DNA from: Candidatus Palauibacter polyketidifaciens
GTDB lineage: Bacteria > Gemmatimonadota > Gemmatimonadetes > Palauibacterales > Palauibacteraceae
Length of the DNA: 43,688 bases
Assembly: GCF_947581785.1 (NCBI RefSeq)
Contig: NZ_CANPVO010000006.1
Span: forward strand, 101,326 to 145,013
Direction of reading: 5' to 3'
In this document: piece by piece, positions 10,775 to 20,019 of the stretch
Numbering within the stretch: the first letter of the stretch is position 1
Layout: the number at the start of each line of letters is the position of its first letter
Position numbers and translations under genes: made by a program
The notes under the pieces: model-generated
Seen by the model: the letters and a program-made list of their open reading frames with translations, nothing else
What the model was told of the DNA's origin: nothing
The model's database searches: none

Positions 10775-11704
10775 ATGACGGTAGGCGTCAACGAGATCAT
10801 GTCCGGAGCCGAGTCCTCGCTCAGCTTGAAACGTCAGGCCAAGATCGAGGCTTGGCGGGACGGAGCGGCTCCGGAGCGGACGGACCACAAGCTGTATCTT
10901 GGCGACGCCCGCGACATGCCCGAGATCGGCGAGCCGATCCATCTCGTCGTCACGTCACCGCCGTATTTCAACCTCATCGATTACGACGGTGGCCGCGCCG
11001 ACGACGGCCAGCTCGGCGGCATCGATGACTACGAATCCTTCCTGGATGAGCTGGACCATGTGTGGCGGCGGTGCTACGACCTCCTCACGCCGGGCGGTCG
11101 GCTGTGCGTGGTCGTGGGGAGCGTCTGCATTTCACGCCGGGCCGGAGGCCGTCATCACGTTCTGCCGCTCCCCGCCGACATCTCGGTCCGCGCGCGGCGG
11201 ATCGGGTTCGACTACCTCACGCCGATCCGCTGGTACAAGATCGCCAACATGGCGACGGAGGCGAGCGGAGTCGGGTTCCTGGGGAAGCCTTACGAACCCA
11301 ACGCGATCGTGAAGAACGACGTCGAGACCATCCTGATGCTGCGGAAGCCCGGGAGCTACCGGAAGCCGACGGCGGCACAGCGTGCGCTCAGCCTCATCGA
11401 ACCGGACGACCACCAGCGCTGGTTCCGATCGATCTGGGACGACATCCGCGGCGAAGCCCGCAAACGAGGCCATCCGGCGCCTTTCCCGGTGGAACTGGCC
11501 TCCCGTCTGGTCCAGATGTTCAGCTTCGTGGGGGACACCGTCCTCGATCCGTTCTGGGGGACGGGGACGACGACAGCCGCCGCCATGCTCACGGCCCGTT
11601 CGAGCGTCGGGTACGAGATCGAACCGAGATATGTCGAGATCGGACGGAGTCGACTGGAACAGCTTGACGCCCTGCAAGTGCCGGCGGAGGTGACCTTCCC
11701 TTGA
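10775..11704 (+). CDS. Beta-class DNA methyltransferase of a type II restriction-modification-like pair
   Basis: The 309-residue enzyme has motif IV TSPPY at 60-64 ahead of the AdoMet-binding motif I, DPFWGTGTT at 258-266, which is the beta-class order. TSPPY is the form typical of N4-cytosine methyltransferases, so m4C is the better guess over m6A. Lengths and the terminal YEIEPRYVEIGRSRL helix fit solitary type II enzymes. The stop overlaps the next start (TTGA), tying it to the putative endonuclease. Recognition sequence unknown. An in-frame ATG at 10799 is an alternative start. Confidence 0.88.
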   Translation: MTVGVNEIMSGAESSLSLKRQAKIEAWRDGAAPERTDHKLYLGDARDMPEIGEPIHLVVTSPPYFNLIDYDGGRADDGQLGGIDDYESFLDELDHVWRRCYDLLTPGGRLCVVVGSVCISRRAGGRHHVLPLPADISVRARRIGFDYLTPIRWYKIANMATEASGVGFLGKPYEPNAIVKNDVETILMLRKPGSYRKPTAAQRALSLIEPDDHQRWFRSIWDDIRGEARKRGHPAPFPVELASRLVQMFSFVGDTVLDPFWGTGTTTAAAMLTARSSVGYEIEPRYVEIGRSRLEQLDALQVPAEVTFP

Positions 11705-12468
11705 ACGCACCCGAAGCGTTCGTCCGCCACCTGGCCGAGAACAACTACCATCCACGATCCGACGCCCACAGCAACGCCATCTGCCTCGCGATCGTCGATG
11801 ACCTGCTCGCGCATTGTCCCGCCTTTGCCGAGCGAGCCCGGGCCGGCGAGATCGTCGCCAAGCTGAACCATACGGTCAAAGTCAACTACATGGACTGGAA
11901 TATTGACCTGGCGGTGGGACCGCCGCCGGGATCGCCCATCCAGCCCAGCAACGGTTCGATATCGTTCGAGACTCCGGCCACCATCGAGTTGGCTCTTGAA
12001 GCCAAGGCCATCATGACGGAACACGGTAAGGCACGCCGGAACCGGCTTCGTGACCTGCAGGCGTTCCACGGCTACGCCCACAGCTACAACGAGAAGACGA
12101 TCGCCGTGGGAACCGTGGCCGTGAACGTCGCGCGTGTGTTCTGGTCGCCGACAAGACCCAAGGAAGACATCACCGAACACGACAACATCGAGAAACTCGG
12201 AAAGAGCACCGTTGAACTCTTTCGAGGGCTTCCACTACGACACACTCCGGCGGAAGGCCCCGGCTTTGAGGCCGTGTCCCTGGTCGTTGTTGACTTCGAC
12301 AACCTGAAAAAGAACCCGGCCTTACCGTACGGCGCTCCGCGCCCGGAAGACCCAAAGCTCGTCACGGGAACTCCGGCGCCCCGGACGGGTGATCCCATGC
12401 ACTATGCCACGATGATCCAGCGGATCTGCGCTGCCTACGAAGGTCGCTGGCAGAGAAGGACCCGCTAG
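11701..12468 (+). CDS. Putative PD-(D/E)XK restriction endonuclease
   Basis: A 255-residue soluble protein starting at TTG, with an excellent GGAGGTGA at 11686-11693, 7 bases ahead. WNIDLAVG (D69) followed about 30 residues later by ELALEAKAIM (E100-A-K102) fits the PD-(D/E)XK nuclease core, and HGKARRNRLRDL after it is a basic, DNA-facing candidate helix. The 4-base overlap with the methyltransferase makes a restriction partner the natural reading. I do not recognise the family from the rest of the sequence. It uses somewhat more AT-rich codons than its neighbours (by eye), consistent with transfer. Confidence 0.65.
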   Translation: MNAPEAFVRHLAENNYHPRSDAHSNAICLAIVDDLLAHCPAFAERARAGEIVAKLNHTVKVNYMDWNIDLAVGPPPGSPIQPSNGSISFETPATIELALEAKAIMTEHGKARRNRLRDLQAFHGYAHSYNEKTIAVGTVAVNVARVFWSPTRPKEDITEHDNIEKLGKSTVELFRGLPLRHTPAEGPGFEAVSLVVVDFDNLKKNPALPYGAPRPEDPKLVTGTPAPRTGDPMHYATMIQRICAAYEGRWQRRTR

Positions 12469-12559: not shown

Positions 12560-13402
12560 CTACCGGGTCCCGGAGGCCTGGGCTCTGAGGGCGGCGACCC
12601 GCTCGTCGGTGGGGGGGTGCGTCGTGAAGAGGGAAGTGAGACCGCGACGTCGCCCCGCGAAGGGGTTCACGATCGCGAGCGAGGCGCCGGCCGGGTTCAC
12701 CTCCATCGGGATGCGGCGCGCGCCGGATTCGAGGCGCTTCAGGGCGCCGGCCAGACCCATGGGATCGCCCGTGATCTCGCCCCCGGTGCGGTCGGCCTGA
12801 AACTCGTTGCGGCGGCTGATCGCCATCTGGATGATGATGGCGGCGAGCGGGGCGACGATGGCCATGACCAGCATGCCAAGCGGGTTGTCGCCGTCGTCGC
12901 GTCCGCCGCCGAAGATGAACCCCCAGCGGGCGATGGAGGCGATCATCGCGATGGCACCCGCCATCGTCGCCGCGACGGTGCCGACGAGCATGTGCCGGTG
13001 CTTGATGTGGGCCAGCTCGTGCGCGATGACGCCGTCGAGTTCGCGGGGAGGCAGCGCGCGCAGGATCCCCTCCGTGAAACAGACCACGGCGTGCTCCGGG
13101 TTCCGCCCCGTCGCGAAGGCGTTGGGCTGCGGCTGCGGCGAGACCGCCACGACCGGTGCCGGCAGCCCCGCCCGCTTCCGCAGCCGCTCGACCCGGTCGT
13201 AGAGGTCCGGCGCCTGCGACCGGTCCACCACCTTCGCCCGGTACATGCGAAGGACCACCCGGTCGCTGAACCAGTACATCCCGAAGTTCATCGCCGCCGA
13301 CAGCACCAGGAACAGGACCGCGCCCTGCTGCCCGAACATCATCTGACCGGCGAACACCAGGAGAAGCGTCAGACCCGTCATGAGGCCGAATACTCTGAAC
13401 AT
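12560..13402 (-). CDS. htpX: HtpX-type membrane zinc metalloprotease (M48B)
   Basis: A 280-residue inner-membrane protease that degrades misfolded membrane proteins with FtsH in well-studied species. The zinc site HELAH is at 128-132, with the third ligand E200 in RRNEFQAD. Hydrophobic segments are at about 8-22, 27-44, 143-165 and 176-195, and PQPNAFATGR precedes the active site as in the family. The C-terminal LFTTHPPTDERVAALR is the standard ending. GAGGG lies 8 bases ahead of the ATG. It stands alone, 93 bases downstream of the next minus-strand operon. Confidence 0.93.
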   Translation of the reverse strand: MFRVFGLMTGLTLLLVFAGQMMFGQQGAVLFLVLSAAMNFGMYWFSDRVVLRMYRAKVVDRSQAPDLYDRVERLRKRAGLPAPVVAVSPQPQPNAFATGRNPEHAVVCFTEGILRALPPRELDGVIAHELAHIKHRHMLVGTVAATMAGAIAMIASIARWGFIFGGGRDDGDNPLGMLVMAIVAPLAAIIIQMAISRRNEFQADRTGGEITGDPMGLAGALKRLESGARRIPMEVNPAGASLAIVNPFAGRRRGLTSLFTTHPPTDERVAALRAQASGTR

Positions 13403-13495: not shown

Positions 13496-14167
13496 TCACG
13501 CTGCCGCCGCGAGCAGATCGCAGAAGATGAAACCATCGCGTTCCACCACCTCGCCGCGCGCGACCGGGATCGGCCGCGACAGGATCGGCCCGTCCCACAC
13601 GAACGTATGGAACTCTCCGTTCTCCCCGCACGGATCCACGCCCTCCGGAAGATCGGCGACGAAAGACGCGTCGAAGGCGCGGCCCGCGAAGGCGGCGTCC
13701 AGCGCCGCCGGGTCGATGCACACCGCGATGGCCTCGAACCCGTCCCGGATGAAGGAACGCGCGAGCGCGGCCGTCGGTTGCTTCCAGATCGGAAAGAGAC
13801 ACTCCAGCCCCGAGGCGGCGAGTTGCCGTTCGCGGTACTCGCGGAGGTCCTCCAGGAAGATGTCTCCGAAGGCCACGCGGCGGATCCCGTCCTCGTGGAG
13901 GCGGTCGAAGGCCTCTCCCATCGCCCGTTCATAGATTTTATTCGAGGACTGCGGCGGGACGACGACCTCGACGAGCGGGATGCCGATAGCCTCAGCCTGG
14001 TCGCGCACGAGCGCGCGCCGCACGCCGTGCATGCTCACCCGATCGTAGGCGTCGGTCACCGTCGTGATCAGGGTCTCGACCCGCCAGGCTCCGGACTGCT
14101 GAAGCGCATGCAGGGCCAGGGCGCTGTCCTTGCCGCCGCTGAAGCACATCGCGATGCGTTCGCTCAC
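13496..14167 (-). CDS. Dph6-like PP-loop ATP-binding protein
   Basis: A 223-residue cytosolic protein with the PP-loop SGGKDSA at 10-16 and, near the end, the signature DPCGENGEFHTFV at 179-190 shared with diphthine-ammonia ligase and its bacterial homologues. These enzymes adenylate a substrate and transfer ammonia; bacteria lack diphthamide, so the bacterial substrate is unknown. Translation starts at GTG in a GTGA overlap with the gene before it, making it the third cistron of the 16868-13496 operon, an unexpected setting for it. Confidence 0.8.
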   Translation of the reverse strand: MSERIAMCFSGGKDSALALHALQQSGAWRVETLITTVTDAYDRVSMHGVRRALVRDQAEAIGIPLVEVVVPPQSSNKIYERAMGEAFDRLHEDGIRRVAFGDIFLEDLREYRERQLAASGLECLFPIWKQPTAALARSFIRDGFEAIAVCIDPAALDAAFAGRAFDASFVADLPEGVDPCGENGEFHTFVWDGPILSRPIPVARGEVVERDGFIFCDLLAAAA

Positions 14168-15651
14168 TCCATGACCGTCGCTTGGAACGCCCCCGTGAGG
14201 ACGCGGCCCTCCCGCTTGACCTGCACCCAGATCGTGTACTCGCCCGGCTGCGGGAACGCGAACGGGAACTCGACGACGCCGGCAGGGGCTGCTGTGCCGC
14301 CGCCGGCCATCGGCGACCCTTCGGGCGCGAGCACCGAGAGCGAGCCCATCGAAATCGTGCCCGCGGGATGCAGGTGCACGAACACCGCCCCGTCATCCCG
14401 GGTGAGCGCGGCGTGGCTGCGCATCCCCATGTAGGGCTCCAGCTCGGCCGGTTTCTCGTCGGGATCCCACACCCTGAACGACAGCACCGTCTCCTCGTCG
14501 ACCCGAAGCTCCCGGTCGCCCTGCCATTCGAGGATCGAACCGTCGGCCAGCGGCGCCTCGGAGCGCGGCCCCGCGAGCGCCATCGGACGGCCCGTCCACG
14601 CCGAGTCGTCCGGGTCCGGCAAGAGGTCCGCGCCCTCGCCGACCTCCTCGGGAACCACGAGCGCCGCCGCGTCGACGGTCACCGTGTCGACGACCGTCTG
14701 CGCGAAGCCGGACTCCTGGACGATGTCGCCGTAGATCCGGTACTCGCCCGGCGGAAGGTCCGGCCACGGGACGCGAAAGGTGGATGAGTCCACGGGAACG
14801 GGGTGCACATGGGCGAACGCGTCCATGCCCGGCGCGCCGACCACGAACATGTGCATCAGCTTGCCGTGGTCCGGCACCAGCGGGCTCCAGTCGCGGCCCC
14901 GCCAGGCGGGATCGGTGATCGTGATTTCCAGAGCAGGCGTCCCTCCGTCGCGTACGATCGCGCCCTCCACGGTGAGGCGCTCGAAGATCCCGCTGCGGAC
15001 GTCCCGGTCGACCGCCTCCCACCAGGCGTTCCCCAGGTAGAGGAGGCCCGCGACTCCCACGGCGGTGAGGGCCATGGCGATTCGGGCGCGGCGGCGGCCC
15101 GCCGGACCCGCCGCCTCCCCCGCCGGAATCTGGCTCTCCCGCACCGCGGCCCCCGTGATCGAGACCACGCCGGCGACGAGGAGCAGCGCGAGCGCGGCCA
15201 GGATCCAGCCGAGACCCGGCGGCAGGTCGCGCACTCCTAGCATGACCGAGGTCACGGGGACCGAGACCTCGCCGCTCCCCCGGGCCCCCTCCACCGCGAC
15301 CTCGACCCGGTACGCGCCGACCGTCATGAGCCACAGTTCCGCGGCGTACAGTTCGGGATCGCCCGCCACGGGAACGGCGACATCGGGGGGCGGCGCGCCG
15401 CCTTCCCGGGCCGCGTCCCAGCGCACGGGGCGCACGGTCACGCGGTCCGCGCCGCCGCCCGACACGCGGACAGAGACTTCCGCCAGTCCCGGGATGACCT
15501 CCGGCGGACGGATGACGACGGAGACGGGGTAGGGCCCCGCCTCGCCGGAGAAGAACACGTTCTTGCTCCCGACGTGCCCCGTCGCCACGACGTACAGCCC
15601 GGCCACGAACGCCGCTGTCCGCGCGAGGCGGGCGGCCCGGTCGGGCCTCAC
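14164..15651 (-). CDS. Membrane-anchored protein with tandem FixH/YtkA-like HxH domains
   Basis: The 495-residue product starts at GTG in a GTGA overlap. Helix 12-26 is followed by a YtkA-like beta domain (about 35-135), two further helices (147-168 and 190-207), then two related beta domains. The first holds H262, H267 and HVH 281-283; the second M408, M410, H413, HLH 426-428 and M435. Both keep the pattern H, about 14 residues, then F-x-HxHP. Such clusters of His and Met suggest copper or another soft metal bound outside the membrane; this is inference. FixH and YtkA relatives occur with copper or oxidase assembly genes. It is coupled to the membrane protein ahead and the PP-loop gene behind. 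Confidence 0.65.
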   Translation of the reverse strand: MRPDRAARLARTAAFVAGLYVVATGHVGSKNVFFSGEAGPYPVSVVIRPPEVIPGLAEVSVRVSGGGADRVTVRPVRWDAAREGGAPPPDVAVPVAGDPELYAAELWLMTVGAYRVEVAVEGARGSGEVSVPVTSVMLGVRDLPPGLGWILAALALLLVAGVVSITGAAVRESQIPAGEAAGPAGRRRARIAMALTAVGVAGLLYLGNAWWEAVDRDVRSGIFERLTVEGAIVRDGGTPALEITITDPAWRGRDWSPLVPDHGKLMHMFVVGAPGMDAFAHVHPVPVDSSTFRVPWPDLPPGEYRIYGDIVQESGFAQTVVDTVTVDAAALVVPEEVGEGADLLPDPDDSAWTGRPMALAGPRSEAPLADGSILEWQGDRELRVDEETVLSFRVWDPDEKPAELEPYMGMRSHAALTRDDGAVFVHLHPAGTISMGSLSVLAPEGSPMAGGGTAAPAGVVEFPFAFPQPGEYTIWVQVKREGRVLTGAFQATVME

Positions 15652-16868
15652 CGGCGGACGCGCAGCCACCAGTTCCCAAGCCACAGGCCTGAGCGGGCCG
15701 AGACGAACGCGATCGGCAGCGCCCACCACGCCGCGGACAGGAAGCTCGATACCGAGAACTCGCCCGCGAGGAACTGGCCGCCGTGCCAGAACACGTTCTC
15801 CCAGTCGCCGGGCGCGGTCGTGTAGCCCCACGTGCTGCCCTGGAAGAAGTAGTTCCGCGCCCCTTCGGAGAGCATGAAGTCGGCGAACACCCACTGGATC
15901 GCGCCGAAGATGCCCACGAAGGCGACGCCCCCCACGGCCGCGATCCGCCAGTCCGTCGAGGCCCGCTCGGGCGCCTCGCCCGGCGCCGAATGTCGCCGCA
16001 GCAGGAGGTCGATAACGATCGCGGGCGCGAACAGGAGAAGCGGGAACTCGGGCGCCACCATGTGGGTGACCGGACGCAGGATCGGCGCGAGCATCGGCTC
16101 CGCCGGGAAGAGCGGCAGCACCCACATCATCGCCAGCGAGACACCAGTATAGACGAGCGCCGCGCACGTCGCCGGCCAGCGCATCTGCCCGGCCCTCCCG
16201 ATGGCGAAGAAGAGGACCGGAAAGACCGCCGCCATGATGAGGTGGAACGTCGCCCCGTGCATCTGGTTCGGGAACGTGTACTCCAGCAGCAGCACCGAGA
16301 GCGACAGGATCAGCATCGCGGCGCTGAACACGTAGGCCCACGCGAGCTTGCGCCGGCCCGTCTCCGAGGCGCGGTTGTGCCACGACAGCGCCATCAGCAG
16401 AGCGCCGACCTGGATCGCATAGATTCCAAGCGCGAGGACCACGTGGGGCGGGCTCAGGATCTCGACGTCGAGCCCGTACGCGTTGTGCCACCAGTCGTCG
16501 AGCGGCGCGGACGTGAGCATGGCGATCGCGCCCCAGATCGCCACCCAGGCCCCGAGCGGCGCACGGAAGCCCCACATGCGGACGGAGCGTCCGACCTCCG
16601 CATCCGTCCCCGAGAACGTCGTCTTCAGCGCGAGCCACCCGCACGACAGCCCCGCCGCCAGCCCGCCCGCGTAGACGAGCAGGTGCGCGGGCGTGAAGAG
16701 GGTGTCCCGCCCGATCGTCCGGTGCCACGAGATGTCCCACGTGATGCCCACGATCACGGCCCCCGAGGCGAACAGGACCGCGGCCAGAGGCCAAGGGATG
16801 CTGTCCGCCGACTCCGCCGCGCCCTCGCGCCGCGCGAAGACGGAGGCAGGTGCTGCTGTCGATTCCAT
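15648..16868 (-). CDS. Histidine-rich 10-TM membrane protein of unknown function
   Basis: A 406-residue protein with about ten membrane segments, near 26-44, 58-80, 104-120, 142-161, 177-196, 207-224, 231-253, 273-290, 308-328 and 377-399. A motif appears twice: D45-x3-H49-x3-G53-x-D55-x4-P60-x-H62, and D124-x3-H128-x3-G132-x-D134-x5-P140-P-H142. Further histidines lie at 204, 209, 269 and 362 near membrane ends. I do not know the family; buried histidines in a repeated frame suggest heme or metal binding. It is the first gene of a three-gene operon with 4-base overlaps, behind a G-rich ribosome site, and diverges from the beta-lactamase-like gene. Confidence 0.65.
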   Translation of the reverse strand: MESTAAPASVFARREGAAESADSIPWPLAAVLFASGAVIVGITWDISWHRTIGRDTLFTPAHLLVYAGGLAAGLSCGWLALKTTFSGTDAEVGRSVRMWGFRAPLGAWVAIWGAIAMLTSAPLDDWWHNAYGLDVEILSPPHVVLALGIYAIQVGALLMALSWHNRASETGRRKLAWAYVFSAAMLILSLSVLLLEYTFPNQMHGATFHLIMAAVFPVLFFAIGRAGQMRWPATCAALVYTGVSLAMMWVLPLFPAEPMLAPILRPVTHMVAPEFPLLLFAPAIVIDLLLRRHSAPGEAPERASTDWRIAAVGGVAFVGIFGAIQWVFADFMLSEGARNYFFQGSTWGYTTAPGDWENVFWHGGQFLAGEFSVSSFLSAAWWALPIAFVSARSGLWLGNWWLRVRR

Positions 16869-16988: not shown

Positions 16989-18470
16989 GTGAGATCAGAG
17001 AGATTCCGGCACGCGCGCCGGGGGTGGCCCGGGAGCGCGCTCGCCGCGGCGGCCCTCGCCCTTGGCGTCGGCGGCTGCGCCGGGCCCGACACGTCATCGG
17101 ACCCCGCCGCCTCCGATTCGTCCCCTGCCTCGCTTGCGGCGGACCAGATCGACGCGATTCACGCCATCGCCGCTTCCCCGATCGAGGCGGGTCGCGCCGC
17201 CGGCATGTCGATCGCGGTCGTGCGCGGGACGGACACGCTCCTGATCGAGGAGTTCGGTCACGCCGACCTCGAACTCGGCGTGCTCACGCCTCCGGACGCC
17301 GTCTACGAGGTCGGATCCGTGACCAAGCAGTTCACCGCGGCCGCCGTTCTCCTCCTGCAGGAGGAAGGGAAGCTCTCCCTCGACGACCCGCTCACGAGGT
17401 GGCTGCCCGACTACCCCGTCGGGGATCGGACCGTCACCGTCCGACAACTCCTGGACCACACCTCGGGCATCAAGGGCTACACCGAGATGGAGCATCTCTG
17501 GGCGGAACTCGCTCCCCTCGAACTCCCGCGGGACACGCTCGTCACGCTCTTCGCCGCCGAGCCGTTCGATTTCGAACCCGGCACGGCGATGACCTACAAC
17601 AACTCTGGCTACTTCCTCGCCGGACTCGTCATCGAGGCGGCGAGCGGGATGAGCTATGAGGATTTCGTCGAGGATCGCCTCTTCGGCGCGGCCGGGATGG
17701 AGAACTCCCGCTACTGCCACAAGGACGAACTCACCCCGAACCGCGCGAAGGGGTACGAGCCGGGCGACGACGGGCTGCACCCGGCGCCCTACCTCGACCA
17801 CCAGTGGCCCTACGCCGCGGGGTCGCTCTGTTCGACGGTGCGCGACCTCGTCGCCTGGAACCAGGCCCTCCACGGAGACGGGGAGGGCGGCGAGATCCTG
17901 ACTCCCGAGAGCTACGAACTGATGATCACGCCCGAGCCCCTGCTCGACGGCACGGAGCTGCGCTACGCGAAAGGCCTCGCGATCACGGATCGCGACGGGG
18001 CCCCGCGGATCGGACACGGCGGCGGGATTTTCGGCTACGTCACCGACCTCCGCTACGTCCCGTCCGAGGATCTATCCATCGCGGTGCTCATCAACACGGC
18101 CGGAGGCGCCTCCTCCGGCGGGATCGCGGGACAGATCGAAGATGTGGTGCTCGGCGCGCCGGACGAGCCCGCCACGGGGACCTTCGAGGGCGATCCGTCA
18201 CCCTACGAAGGCCGCTACGAAGGCCCGGCCCGCGGCCAGCGCATCACCGCGACGGTGGCGGCCGAGGACGGGCAACTGACGATCGACACGGGAGGCGGCG
18301 AACCGGCCACCCTCTCGTGGCTGGGCGGCGACGAGTTCGCCGATGGACGGACCCTGTATCGTTTCGTCCGGGACGAAGATTCCGGAGCCGCCGGAACCGG
18401 AGCCGCCTTCGATGAACTTCGGATGGACGTGGTTTCGGGACACTTCGTCCTGCGTAGGGTCAACCCGTGA
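16989..18470 (+). CDS. Serine hydrolase lipoprotein, class C beta-lactamase family
   Basis: A 493-residue protein with the catalytic S110-x-x-K113 in GSVTKQF, Y203-N-N205 in MTYNNSGY, and a HGGGIFGY motif replacing KTG. The family includes DD-peptidases, esterases and D-aminopeptidases, and true beta-lactamase activity is uncommon. After the catalytic domain a C-terminal lipocalin-like DUF3471-type domain (from about residue 400, beginning with YEGRYEGP) is likely. The signal ends GVGGC (Cys30), a lipobox. The GTG start at 16989 has AGGAG 7 bases upstream. Confidence 0.85.
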   Translation: MRSERFRHARRGWPGSALAAAALALGVGGCAGPDTSSDPAASDSSPASLAADQIDAIHAIAASPIEAGRAAGMSIAVVRGTDTLLIEEFGHADLELGVLTPPDAVYEVGSVTKQFTAAAVLLLQEEGKLSLDDPLTRWLPDYPVGDRTVTVRQLLDHTSGIKGYTEMEHLWAELAPLELPRDTLVTLFAAEPFDFEPGTAMTYNNSGYFLAGLVIEAASGMSYEDFVEDRLFGAAGMENSRYCHKDELTPNRAKGYEPGDDGLHPAPYLDHQWPYAAGSLCSTVRDLVAWNQALHGDGEGGEILTPESYELMITPEPLLDGTELRYAKGLAITDRDGAPRIGHGGGIFGYVTDLRYVPSEDLSIAVLINTAGGASSGGIAGQIEDVVLGAPDEPATGTFEGDPSPYEGRYEGPARGQRITATVAAEDGQLTIDTGGGEPATLSWLGGDEFADGRTLYRFVRDEDSGAAGTGAAFDELRMDVVSGHFVLRRVNP

Positions 18471-18522
18471 CGCCGACGCGGCGATCGCGATCCACCCACT
18501 CCAGCGAAACGAGGCAACGAAC

Positions 18523-20019
18523 GTGATTCCCCGACTGCGACAGGACATCGAGGATATCGCCAAGCGGATCAAGGAGGGCCGCTTTGAGAGCGAAGCGCAG
18601 GTCAGTGTCGGTGTGGTGCAGCGTCTCCTGGGGAGCCTCGGCTGGCCTCGGTACGACACACAGATCGTGATCCCCGAGTTCGCAGTCGGCGGTGGGCGGA
18701 GGGTCGACTACGCCCTCTGTCACCCCCAGAAAAAAGCCGTAGTCCTCGTCGAGGTGAAGAAGCCCGGAGCCGTGAATCCGAGGGCCGAGGAGCAACTCTT
18801 CGGCTACTGCGTGCGCGTGGGTGTGCCAATCGCGGTGCTTACGGACGGACAGACGTGGCATTTCTTCCTCCCGGCGGGACAGGGTTCCTTCGAGGAGCGA
18901 TGTTTCGCCCGAGTTGACTTGACGTCGGACGATTCCAGCAAGGCCGAAAAGCGACTCCTGAGGTATCTCCAGTATGAGGAGGTCAAGGATGGCCGCAGCC
19001 CGGAGAATGCGCAGCAGGATCTCACGAGGGCGCGCCTCGATCGCGCGTACAGGCAGGCATGGCGTCGCATCGTCGAGGAACCGGCAAACAAATTCCTGAG
19101 GCTGTTCATTCACGAGGTGAAGAACGTGGCGGCGCTGGACCCCTCGGAGGACGATGCCGCCACATGGCTTCGGCGTCGCGCATCGGCTAGGCGCAGCGCA
19201 CAGGGGCTCACGCCTCCGAAACTCGTTAAGCCGCCCCAGCCCCCGCCCCCGAAGCCAAAGCCCCGGGACTCTAGGTGTTGGGTGGAGTTCCGCGGAGAGC
19301 GGCATGCTGTCCGGAACGGCATAGAGATCCTCGTCAGGGCCTTCACGCTGCTTGCCGAAGAAGACCCAAGCTTGTGCCAGCGTGTCAGTGAGAAGCATCG
19401 GTGGTTGACGCGTGACGTGAAGCTGAAGCCAATGAGGATCCTGCACCGTGACTACAGACAGCTCCCGGGAGGATGGTGGATCTACAGCAACATCATCCAC
19501 CATGAAAAGTCGAAGCGGATCGAACAGGCGTGCCAAGTAGCGGGAGTGCGTTTCGGACGCGATCTGAAGATCCAGTTTCCCGGCCAGCAGCCAGTCCCGC
19601 CGAAGCCGGAACTCCCAGTGGACCACTCAAGACCGCAGGAAGCGGACTCCCAGCACTGGGTGGAATTCCGCGGAGAACGGCACGCCGTCCGCAACGGGAT
19701 AGAGGTTCTCGTTAGAGCCTTCACCCTATTGGCGCAGGACGACCCCACTTTCTGCCGGCGCTACAGCGATAGGTACCAGAGGAAGACGCGTGATCGGAAG
19801 CTGAGGCCGCGGGTCGCCCGTACCCGTTCCGAGATCCACCCGAACGATGCGGCCCTGCGGGAGCGCTGCAGGTCGCTCCCCGGGGGCTGGTGGGTCGATA
19901 GCAACGTTAGCAACAGGAGCAAGAGAGTGTGGGTCGAGCAGGCGTGCGGTCTGACGCGATTCCGTTTCGGGGAGGACTTGAGAATCCACTTTCCCGAGAA
20001 GTCAGCGGACGGATCATGA
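18523..20019 (+). CDS. Restriction-like PD-(D/E)XK protein with duplicated C-terminal domain
   Basis: The first 150 residues of this 498-residue protein match the N-terminal nuclease domain of type I HsdR-like proteins: E24, then VDYALC (D62) and VLVEVKKP (E77, K79), with LTDGQTWHFF after. No helicase follows. Instead, after a Pro/Lys linker (231-247), two copies of a domain of about 100 residues appear (251-353 and 378-491), each opening with WVEFRGERHAVRNGIE and containing LPGGWW and FGxDLxI. The start is GTG with GAGG 8 bases ahead. Its TGA overlaps the next ATG. A DNA- or RNA-recognition role for the repeats is inference; the family is not one I can name. Confidence 0.7.
   Translation: MIPRLRQDIEDIAKRIKEGRFESEAQVSVGVVQRLLGSLGWPRYDTQIVIPEFAVGGGRRVDYALCHPQKKAVVLVEVKKPGAVNPRAEEQLFGYCVRVGVPIAVLTDGQTWHFFLPAGQGSFEERCFARVDLTSDDSSKAEKRLLRYLQYEEVKDGRSPENAQQDLTRARLDRAYRQAWRRIVEEPANKFLRLFIHEVKNVAALDPSEDDAATWLRRRASARRSAQGLTPPKLVKPPQPPPPKPKPRDSRCWVEFRGERHAVRNGIEILVRAFTLLAEEDPSLCQRVSEKHRWLTRDVKLKPMRILHRDYRQLPGGWWIYSNIIHHEKSKRIEQACQVAGVRFGRDLKIQFPGQQPVPPKPELPVDHSRPQEADSQHWVEFRGERHAVRNGIEVLVRAFTLLAQDDPTFCRRYSDRYQRKTRDRKLRPRVARTRSEIHPNDAALRERCRSLPGGWWVDSNVSNRSKRVWVEQACGLTRFRFGEDLRIHFPEKSADGS
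19273..19995 (+). repeat. Tandem intragenic domain duplication
   Basis: Segment 19273-19581 and segment 19654-19995 encode two copies of the same domain. Their first 60 or so bases are close to identical at the DNA level (by eye), and copy 2 carries a short insertion in the middle (about residues 430-444), separated by a Pro-rich linker. The uneven divergence suggests either recent gene conversion or strong selection on the opening block. Confidence 0.75.

Follow-up and report, generated by a model that had tools for sequence, protein, structure and literature searches.

A conserved gene pair carrying a PmoC/AmoC-like metal-site core, with a probable role in copper handling in the bacterial envelope

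The locus and its conserved two-gene unit

We analysed a stretch of 43,688 nucleotides from Candidatus Palauibacter polyketidifaciens, a member of Gemmatimonadota (NZ_CANPVO010000006.1, positions 101,326-145,013), referred to below as the window and the basis of all coordinates given here. Our subject is a pair of genes, g1 and g2, followed in this organism by a third, gene 3. An earlier note on this DNA had described three genes joined by GTGA overlaps and set apart from their neighbours, and the coordinates of the open reading frames (ORFs) bear this out. The 4-base GTGA overlap is found at both the g1/g2 and the g2/gene 3 junction. The downstream neighbour, an HtpX protease gene (12560-13402), is separate from the run, and upstream of g1 a gene for a beta-lactamase-family protein lies divergently on the opposite strand. 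The three genes, with TM standing for transmembrane helix, are:

15648..16868, minus strand: g1, 406 amino acids, 10-TM membrane protein with a PmoC/AmoC-like copper-site core in TM1-4
14164..15651, minus strand: g2, 495 amino acids; signal peptide followed by beta domain 1, two TMs and beta domains 2 and 3
13496..14167, minus strand: gene 3, 223 amino acids, Dph6-like PP-loop ATPase; operon partner in Palauibacter only

A genome scan with the g1 alignment gave 438 relatives, 80 of which were retained, from Gemmatimonadota, Acidobacteriota and Verrucomicrobiota. In 79 of these 80 diverse loci g2 adjoins g1 on the same strand, and g1 is present in 84 of 295 Gemmatimonadota genomes. The present host is marine-associated, whereas the bacteria of soil and water that have the pair number in the hundreds. 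Gene 3 lies beside the pair in 9 of the 80 loci, all from the Palauibacter group, and is missing there in the other 71; it occurs together with the pair in 12 of the 13 Palauibacter genomes having a detected g2, and some genomes that lack the pair have it too. The unit that is conserved comprises g1 and g2, with gene 3 as a lineage-specific addition outside it. Because gene 3 does not accompany the pair in genomes other than those of Palauibacter and is found elsewhere in the absence of the pair, a system of three genes, as the earlier note had proposed, is unsupported, and we reject it. The search for the same order of families in other genomes, suggested there as a check, thus upholds g1 with g2 and confines gene 3 to Palauibacter. 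The description of the last gene as a Dph6-like ATPase was correct: it matches PF01902 (Dph6/ATP_bind_4) with E 1.4e-34 and 120 bits against a cut-off of 23.2, and falls below the cut-off of the Dph6 equivalog TIGR03679 (87 against 197.3 bits).

Some loci in the collection stand out. A Bryobacterales contig (L062, 8001-9158) is the sole one of the 80 with g1 and without g2, no trace of g2 being found within 17 kb. On two soil Gemmatimonadota contigs (L073, 6841-9150; L087, 121-2775) g1 and g2 read as a single ORF, which may be a true fusion or an assembly artefact; L087 apparently lacks the end of g1 and L073 has masked bases, so misassembly could account for both. Three contigs titled Klebsiella pneumoniae or Akkermansia muciniphila (L043, L060, L078) carry the pair, otherwise seen in Verrucomicrobiota and relatives, and their organism labels are probably wrong. 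No g1 relatives were found in viral contigs or phages.

The twin metal-site pattern of g1

The AlphaFold2 model of g1 (predicted local distance difference test score, pLDDT, 91.4; predicted template-modelling score, pTM, 0.90) shows 10 helices, in agreement with the 10-TM topology given in the earlier note. Two half-sites of the same kind lie in the first four:

16683..16736, minus strand: first half-site, D45-x3-H49-x12-H62, equivalent of CuC Asp156/His160/His173; invariant in 81 of 81 sequences
16443..16499, minus strand: second half-site, D124-x3-H128-x13-H142, corresponding to CuD Asn227/His231/His245 but with Asp where CuD has Asn; invariant in 81 of 81 sequences

All six residues (D45, H49, H62, D124, H128 and H142) are invariant among the 81 g1 sequences, whereas the membrane histidines H164, H209, H293 and H362 vary. 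The earlier suggestion that the many membrane histidines of this protein matter therefore holds for four of them, together with the two ligand-matching aspartates, and not for most of the others. All 80 g1 ORFs have the double six-residue pattern, as do 14 of 14 AmoC/PmoC proteins and 5 of 5 actinobacterial relatives described below. It was absent from the 5,661 other ORFs scanned, which total 1.25 million residues, and from all 40,000 shuffles, and is therefore beyond chance in g1. Comparison of TM1-2 with TM3-4 of g1 itself gave E 0.0016 against 0.2 for the reversed control and aligned D-H-H onto D-H-H, so that the half-sites look like products of internal duplication. In the model the ligands are placed at the end of TM1, the start of TM2, the end of TM3 and the start of TM4, which would hence put them on one face of the membrane. 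Loop charge counts slightly favour an N-in topology, weak evidence that the sites are periplasmic. Within the core, the model is least reliable at residues 131-140, the second-site loop (about 69).

These spacings are those of a known enzyme family. In the particulate methane monooxygenase (pMMO), CuC is bound by Asp156/His160/His173 (PMC12576850) and CuD by Asn227/His231/His245, CuD being the reported methane-oxidising site (PMC11194816); the spacings in g1 equal those of CuC (x3, x12) and CuD (x3, x13). The CuC-type set is complete in g1. The CuD-type set N-x3-H-x13-H is not, both histidines and the spacing being kept with Asp replacing Asn in all 81 sequences. Pfam and NCBIfam place g1 residues 44-143 on AmoC under their cut-offs (18 against 26.7 bits and 18.5 against 280.6, respectively), and a phmmer search of PDB sequences retrieved three AmoC chains at E 6.7e-5 to 1.7e-4, the alignments covering both sets of ligands. 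Profile comparison by hhalign gave E 9.5e-6 against AmoC/PmoC from viral contigs and 1.3e-5 against a broader AmoC/PmoC set in which Methylomagnum, Methylocystis, Mycobacterium and Rhodococcus were represented; the reversed controls gave 0.48 and 0.55.

Thus g1 and PmoC/AmoC (PF04896) share two D/N-x3-H-x12/13-H half-sites of the same spacing at the ends of paired helices, a SWHxxIxRDTxFTPxH motif and about 20% core identity. They differ in that g1 has six extra helices after the core whereas AmoC, by inspection of its sequence, has its extra helices before it. Fold searches of g1 and g2 against the PDB, and of g1 against viral models, returned only helical-bundle or generic immunoglobulin-like matches, which were uninformative. 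Judged by sequence, spacing and profile comparison, the grounds on which the claim rests because no confident fold match was found, the four-helix core of g1 is distantly homologous to the copper-site core of PmoC/AmoC.

A PmoA-like C-terminal half of g1 was considered and discarded (hhalign 0.15 against 0.2 reversed). No conserved third gene that could encode an A subunit was seen beside the pair in the 80 loci or in 24 neighbourhoods. When the host genome was searched with PF02461 (A subunit) and PF04744 (B subunit) no match was obtained, but neither did the controls of these searches match anything. With no PmoA found and no homology established between g2 and PmoB (see below), we do not class the g1-g2 pair as a copper membrane monooxygenase (CuMMO).

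The partner protein g2 and relatives in copper-resistance surroundings

The model of g2 (pLDDT 92.6) opens with a signal helix and a beta domain; a pair of TM helices and then two further beta domains follow. Three places in it appear suited to metal:

15574..15576, minus strand: His26, predicted to be the first residue once the signal peptide is cleaved; invariant in 79 of 79 sequences
14803..14868, minus strand: domain 2 His cluster, H262-x4-H267 ... H281-x-H283; all four invariant in 79 of 79
14368..14424, minus strand: domain 3 cluster, M410, H413 ... H426-x-H428; each kept in 76 of 79

The earlier note had described an anchored protein with two His/Met clusters; both clusters are there, and the N-terminal histidine brings the number of such places to three. 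It had also named freely varying histidines as a finding that would speak against its view, and the key histidines of g1 and g2 do not vary. His26 is probably the first residue of mature g2, because a hydrophobic segment precedes it, the residue at -1 is Ala or Gly in 76 of 78 sequences, and that at +2 is Gly in 78 of 78.

In PmoB, His33 is the mature N-terminus, and its amino group and side chain bind CuB (PMC12576850). PmoB/AmoB (PF04744) and g2 have in common a signal peptide, the order beta, TM, TM, beta, and a His at the predicted mature N-terminus. Unlike PmoB/AmoB, g2 lacks HxH in domain 1, has an extra C-terminal beta domain and bears its His clusters in domains 2 and 3. By sequence, no homology between g2 and PmoB could be detected (hhalign 0.027 against 0.025-0.042 reversed), and the common topology is a resemblance only. 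Weak matches of g2 members were to YtkA (best E 4e-5) and to CopC (best E 0.0046, in 5 of 61 members).

Relatives of both proteins occur outside these three phyla. A plasmid search found fused proteins in Actinomycetota, comprising a g1 core and a C-terminal domain starting AHDPGQG, which match g1 with E 2.3e-21 over 194 columns and AmoC with E 5.1e-4 (hhalign). These proteins (e.g. WP_024126299, WP_212728630) share the double metal pattern with g1, and their periplasmic C-terminal domain starts A-x-A-H-D-P-G-Q-G; they differ from g1-g2 in being one polypeptide without g2 domains 2-3. Homology between their C-terminal domain and g2 domain 1 was not significant (0.12). Five plasmids, from Streptomyces, Mycolicibacterium and Leifsonia, carry the fused genes, and on three of these plasmids genes clearly related to copper or heavy metals are nearby. 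The vicinity of the gene on Streptomyces pFRL4 includes a multicopper oxidase, genes for cytochrome c assembly and a cupredoxin; on S. mirabilis pI it includes a cupredoxin, a heavy-metal P-type ATPase and a heavy-metal-associated protein. In Leifsonia it adjoins a metal-sensitive regulator, two heavy-metal ATPases, a multicopper oxidase and a four-helix copper-binding protein. A heavy-metal ATPase lies about 10 kb from the gene in M. aubagnense, and only a CopY-family regulator and thioredoxin-type genes are near it in M. chubuense. The Mycolicibacterium chubuense NBB4 plasmid pMYCCH.01 carries both a true CuMMO CAB operon and a separate fused g1-like gene (L193, 6905-8374; L183, 4432-7495). 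Several fused relatives (in L184, L186, L191, L192 and L193) are found near cell-wall-active proteins (RipB, M15, M23, polysaccharide deacetylase) besides metal genes.

Domains 2 and 3 of g2 also occur in stand-alone YtkA/FixH/cupredoxin-like proteins (P0007-P0010) with the same His ligands, which differ from g2 in lacking domain 1 and the TM hairpin and have no adjoining g1 partner in the four regions read. In Gordonia and Rhodococcus they are accompanied by heavy-metal-associated proteins, copper ATPases and metal-sensitive regulators; the Haladaptatus relative adjoins a four-helix copper-binding protein, and the Leptolyngbya copy is near a cation efflux gene. All keep the g2 His ligands except for one His replaced by Gln in Leptolyngbya, and the Met of domain 3 is not kept.

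Two further regions of the window deserve mention. At 10775-12468 (plus strand) an N6/N4 DNA methylase (PF01555; Type II methyltransferase according to PADLOC) overlaps a 255-amino-acid ORF without family match, and together they look like a restriction-modification pair with an unrecognised endonuclease. At 18343-20019 (plus strand) a 558-amino-acid ORF without Pfam match contains a segment of about 100 residues (LPGGWW...) twice, and its N-terminal part, judged by eye, resembles a restriction-type HsdR_N domain.

Copper handling, oxygen activation and other readings

We suggest that g1 and g2 form a copper-binding membrane complex sharing the metal core of the CuMMOs and probably serving envelope copper handling, a reading to which we give a probability of roughly 0.55. 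The twin hairpins of g1 each supply Asp-His-His, the equivalents of CuC and CuD, and in this reading these sites would face the periplasm. The exposed His clusters of g2 would capture copper, and g2 would pass it to the twin sites of g1 or regulate copper there. The role is most likely one of capture, transfer or oxidation of Cu(I), since outside these phyla the nearest relatives belong to copper-resistance clusters. The earlier note had guessed at a copper- or heme-related envelope function; the site pattern of PmoC/AmoC and the copper-cluster relatives of both genes favour copper, and no support was found for heme. Copper binding, complex formation and the periplasmic orientation of the sites are what we infer for the pair, and several points tell against the reading. 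Only homology and context indicate which metal would be bound. The whole g1 model gave no confident match in a Foldseek search of the PDB, AmoC chains ranking 18 and 28 with E about 1 and a TM-score of 0.28. Among the neighbours of 24 diverse g1-g2 loci, called by a simple GC-frame rule, no shared family and no recurrent copper gene was found; the pair stands alone in its own phyla, and therefore context there does not decide its function.

The chief rival is a two-subunit oxidase or monooxygenase, of undefined substrate, activating O2 on the C-subunit core without PmoA or PmoB. It draws on the strict conservation of both ligand sets, one of them corresponding to the reported methane-oxidising site, and on the PmoB-like topology and predicted mature N-terminal His of g2; that a passive carrier should keep a CuC- and a CuD-type site so strictly would be surprising. 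We nevertheless consider it doubtful, given that Asp takes the place of the CuD Asn, that no PmoA-like protein and no sequence homology between g2 and PmoB were found, and that no metabolic neighbours recur while relatives lie in copper-resistance clusters. A copper importer of the CopC/CopD type, in which g2 would be the CopC-like chaperone and g1 the membrane channel, is unlikely. The pair does share with CopC/CopD a periplasmic beta domain with N-terminal His, resembling a histidine brace, next to a membrane protein, and the YtkA and CopC matches of g2 members point the same way; yet g1 has no Pfam match to CopD (PF05425), an identity we have rejected, its core matches AmoC, and a true CopD is encoded elsewhere in the host genome. 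Convergence on a metal motif, with a function unrelated to copper, is a very improbable account of the likeness to AmoC. The similarity is limited to about 100 residues and the fold search of the whole model did not confidently recover AmoC, but the agreement extends beyond the ligands to the SWHxxIxRDTxFTPxH motif, helix placement, spacing and internal repeat, and the relatives have copper surroundings. Least credible of all is one biosynthetic or translation-related system of three genes, with the Dph6-like ATPase modifying a product: the GTGA overlaps and the presence of gene 3 beside the pair in nearly all pair-bearing Palauibacter genomes fit it, and the distribution of gene 3 described above largely refutes it.

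An open-access literature search found no description of the g1-g2 family, although one may exist elsewhere; as far as our tools show, the complex has not been described before. The literature searched treats CuMMO C subunits only alongside their A and B partners. With the same twin sites, no PmoA, no recognisable PmoB and relatives in copper-resistance regions, the g1-g2 family is a concrete candidate for an ancestral CuMMO state and offers a simpler two-protein system for the study of the pMMO copper sites. More tentatively, the pair might be a second, PmoA/PmoB-independent architecture of the CuMMO C subunit, a two-subunit enzyme activating O2 at twin Asp-His-His sites and widespread in Gemmatimonadota, Acidobacteriota and Verrucomicrobiota, which, if true, would point to a copper-handling ancestor of the methane and ammonia monooxygenases. 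AmoC-like matches in metagenomes need not signal methane or ammonia oxidation, and a copper role is suggested for the actinobacterial plasmid proteins now labelled hypothetical.

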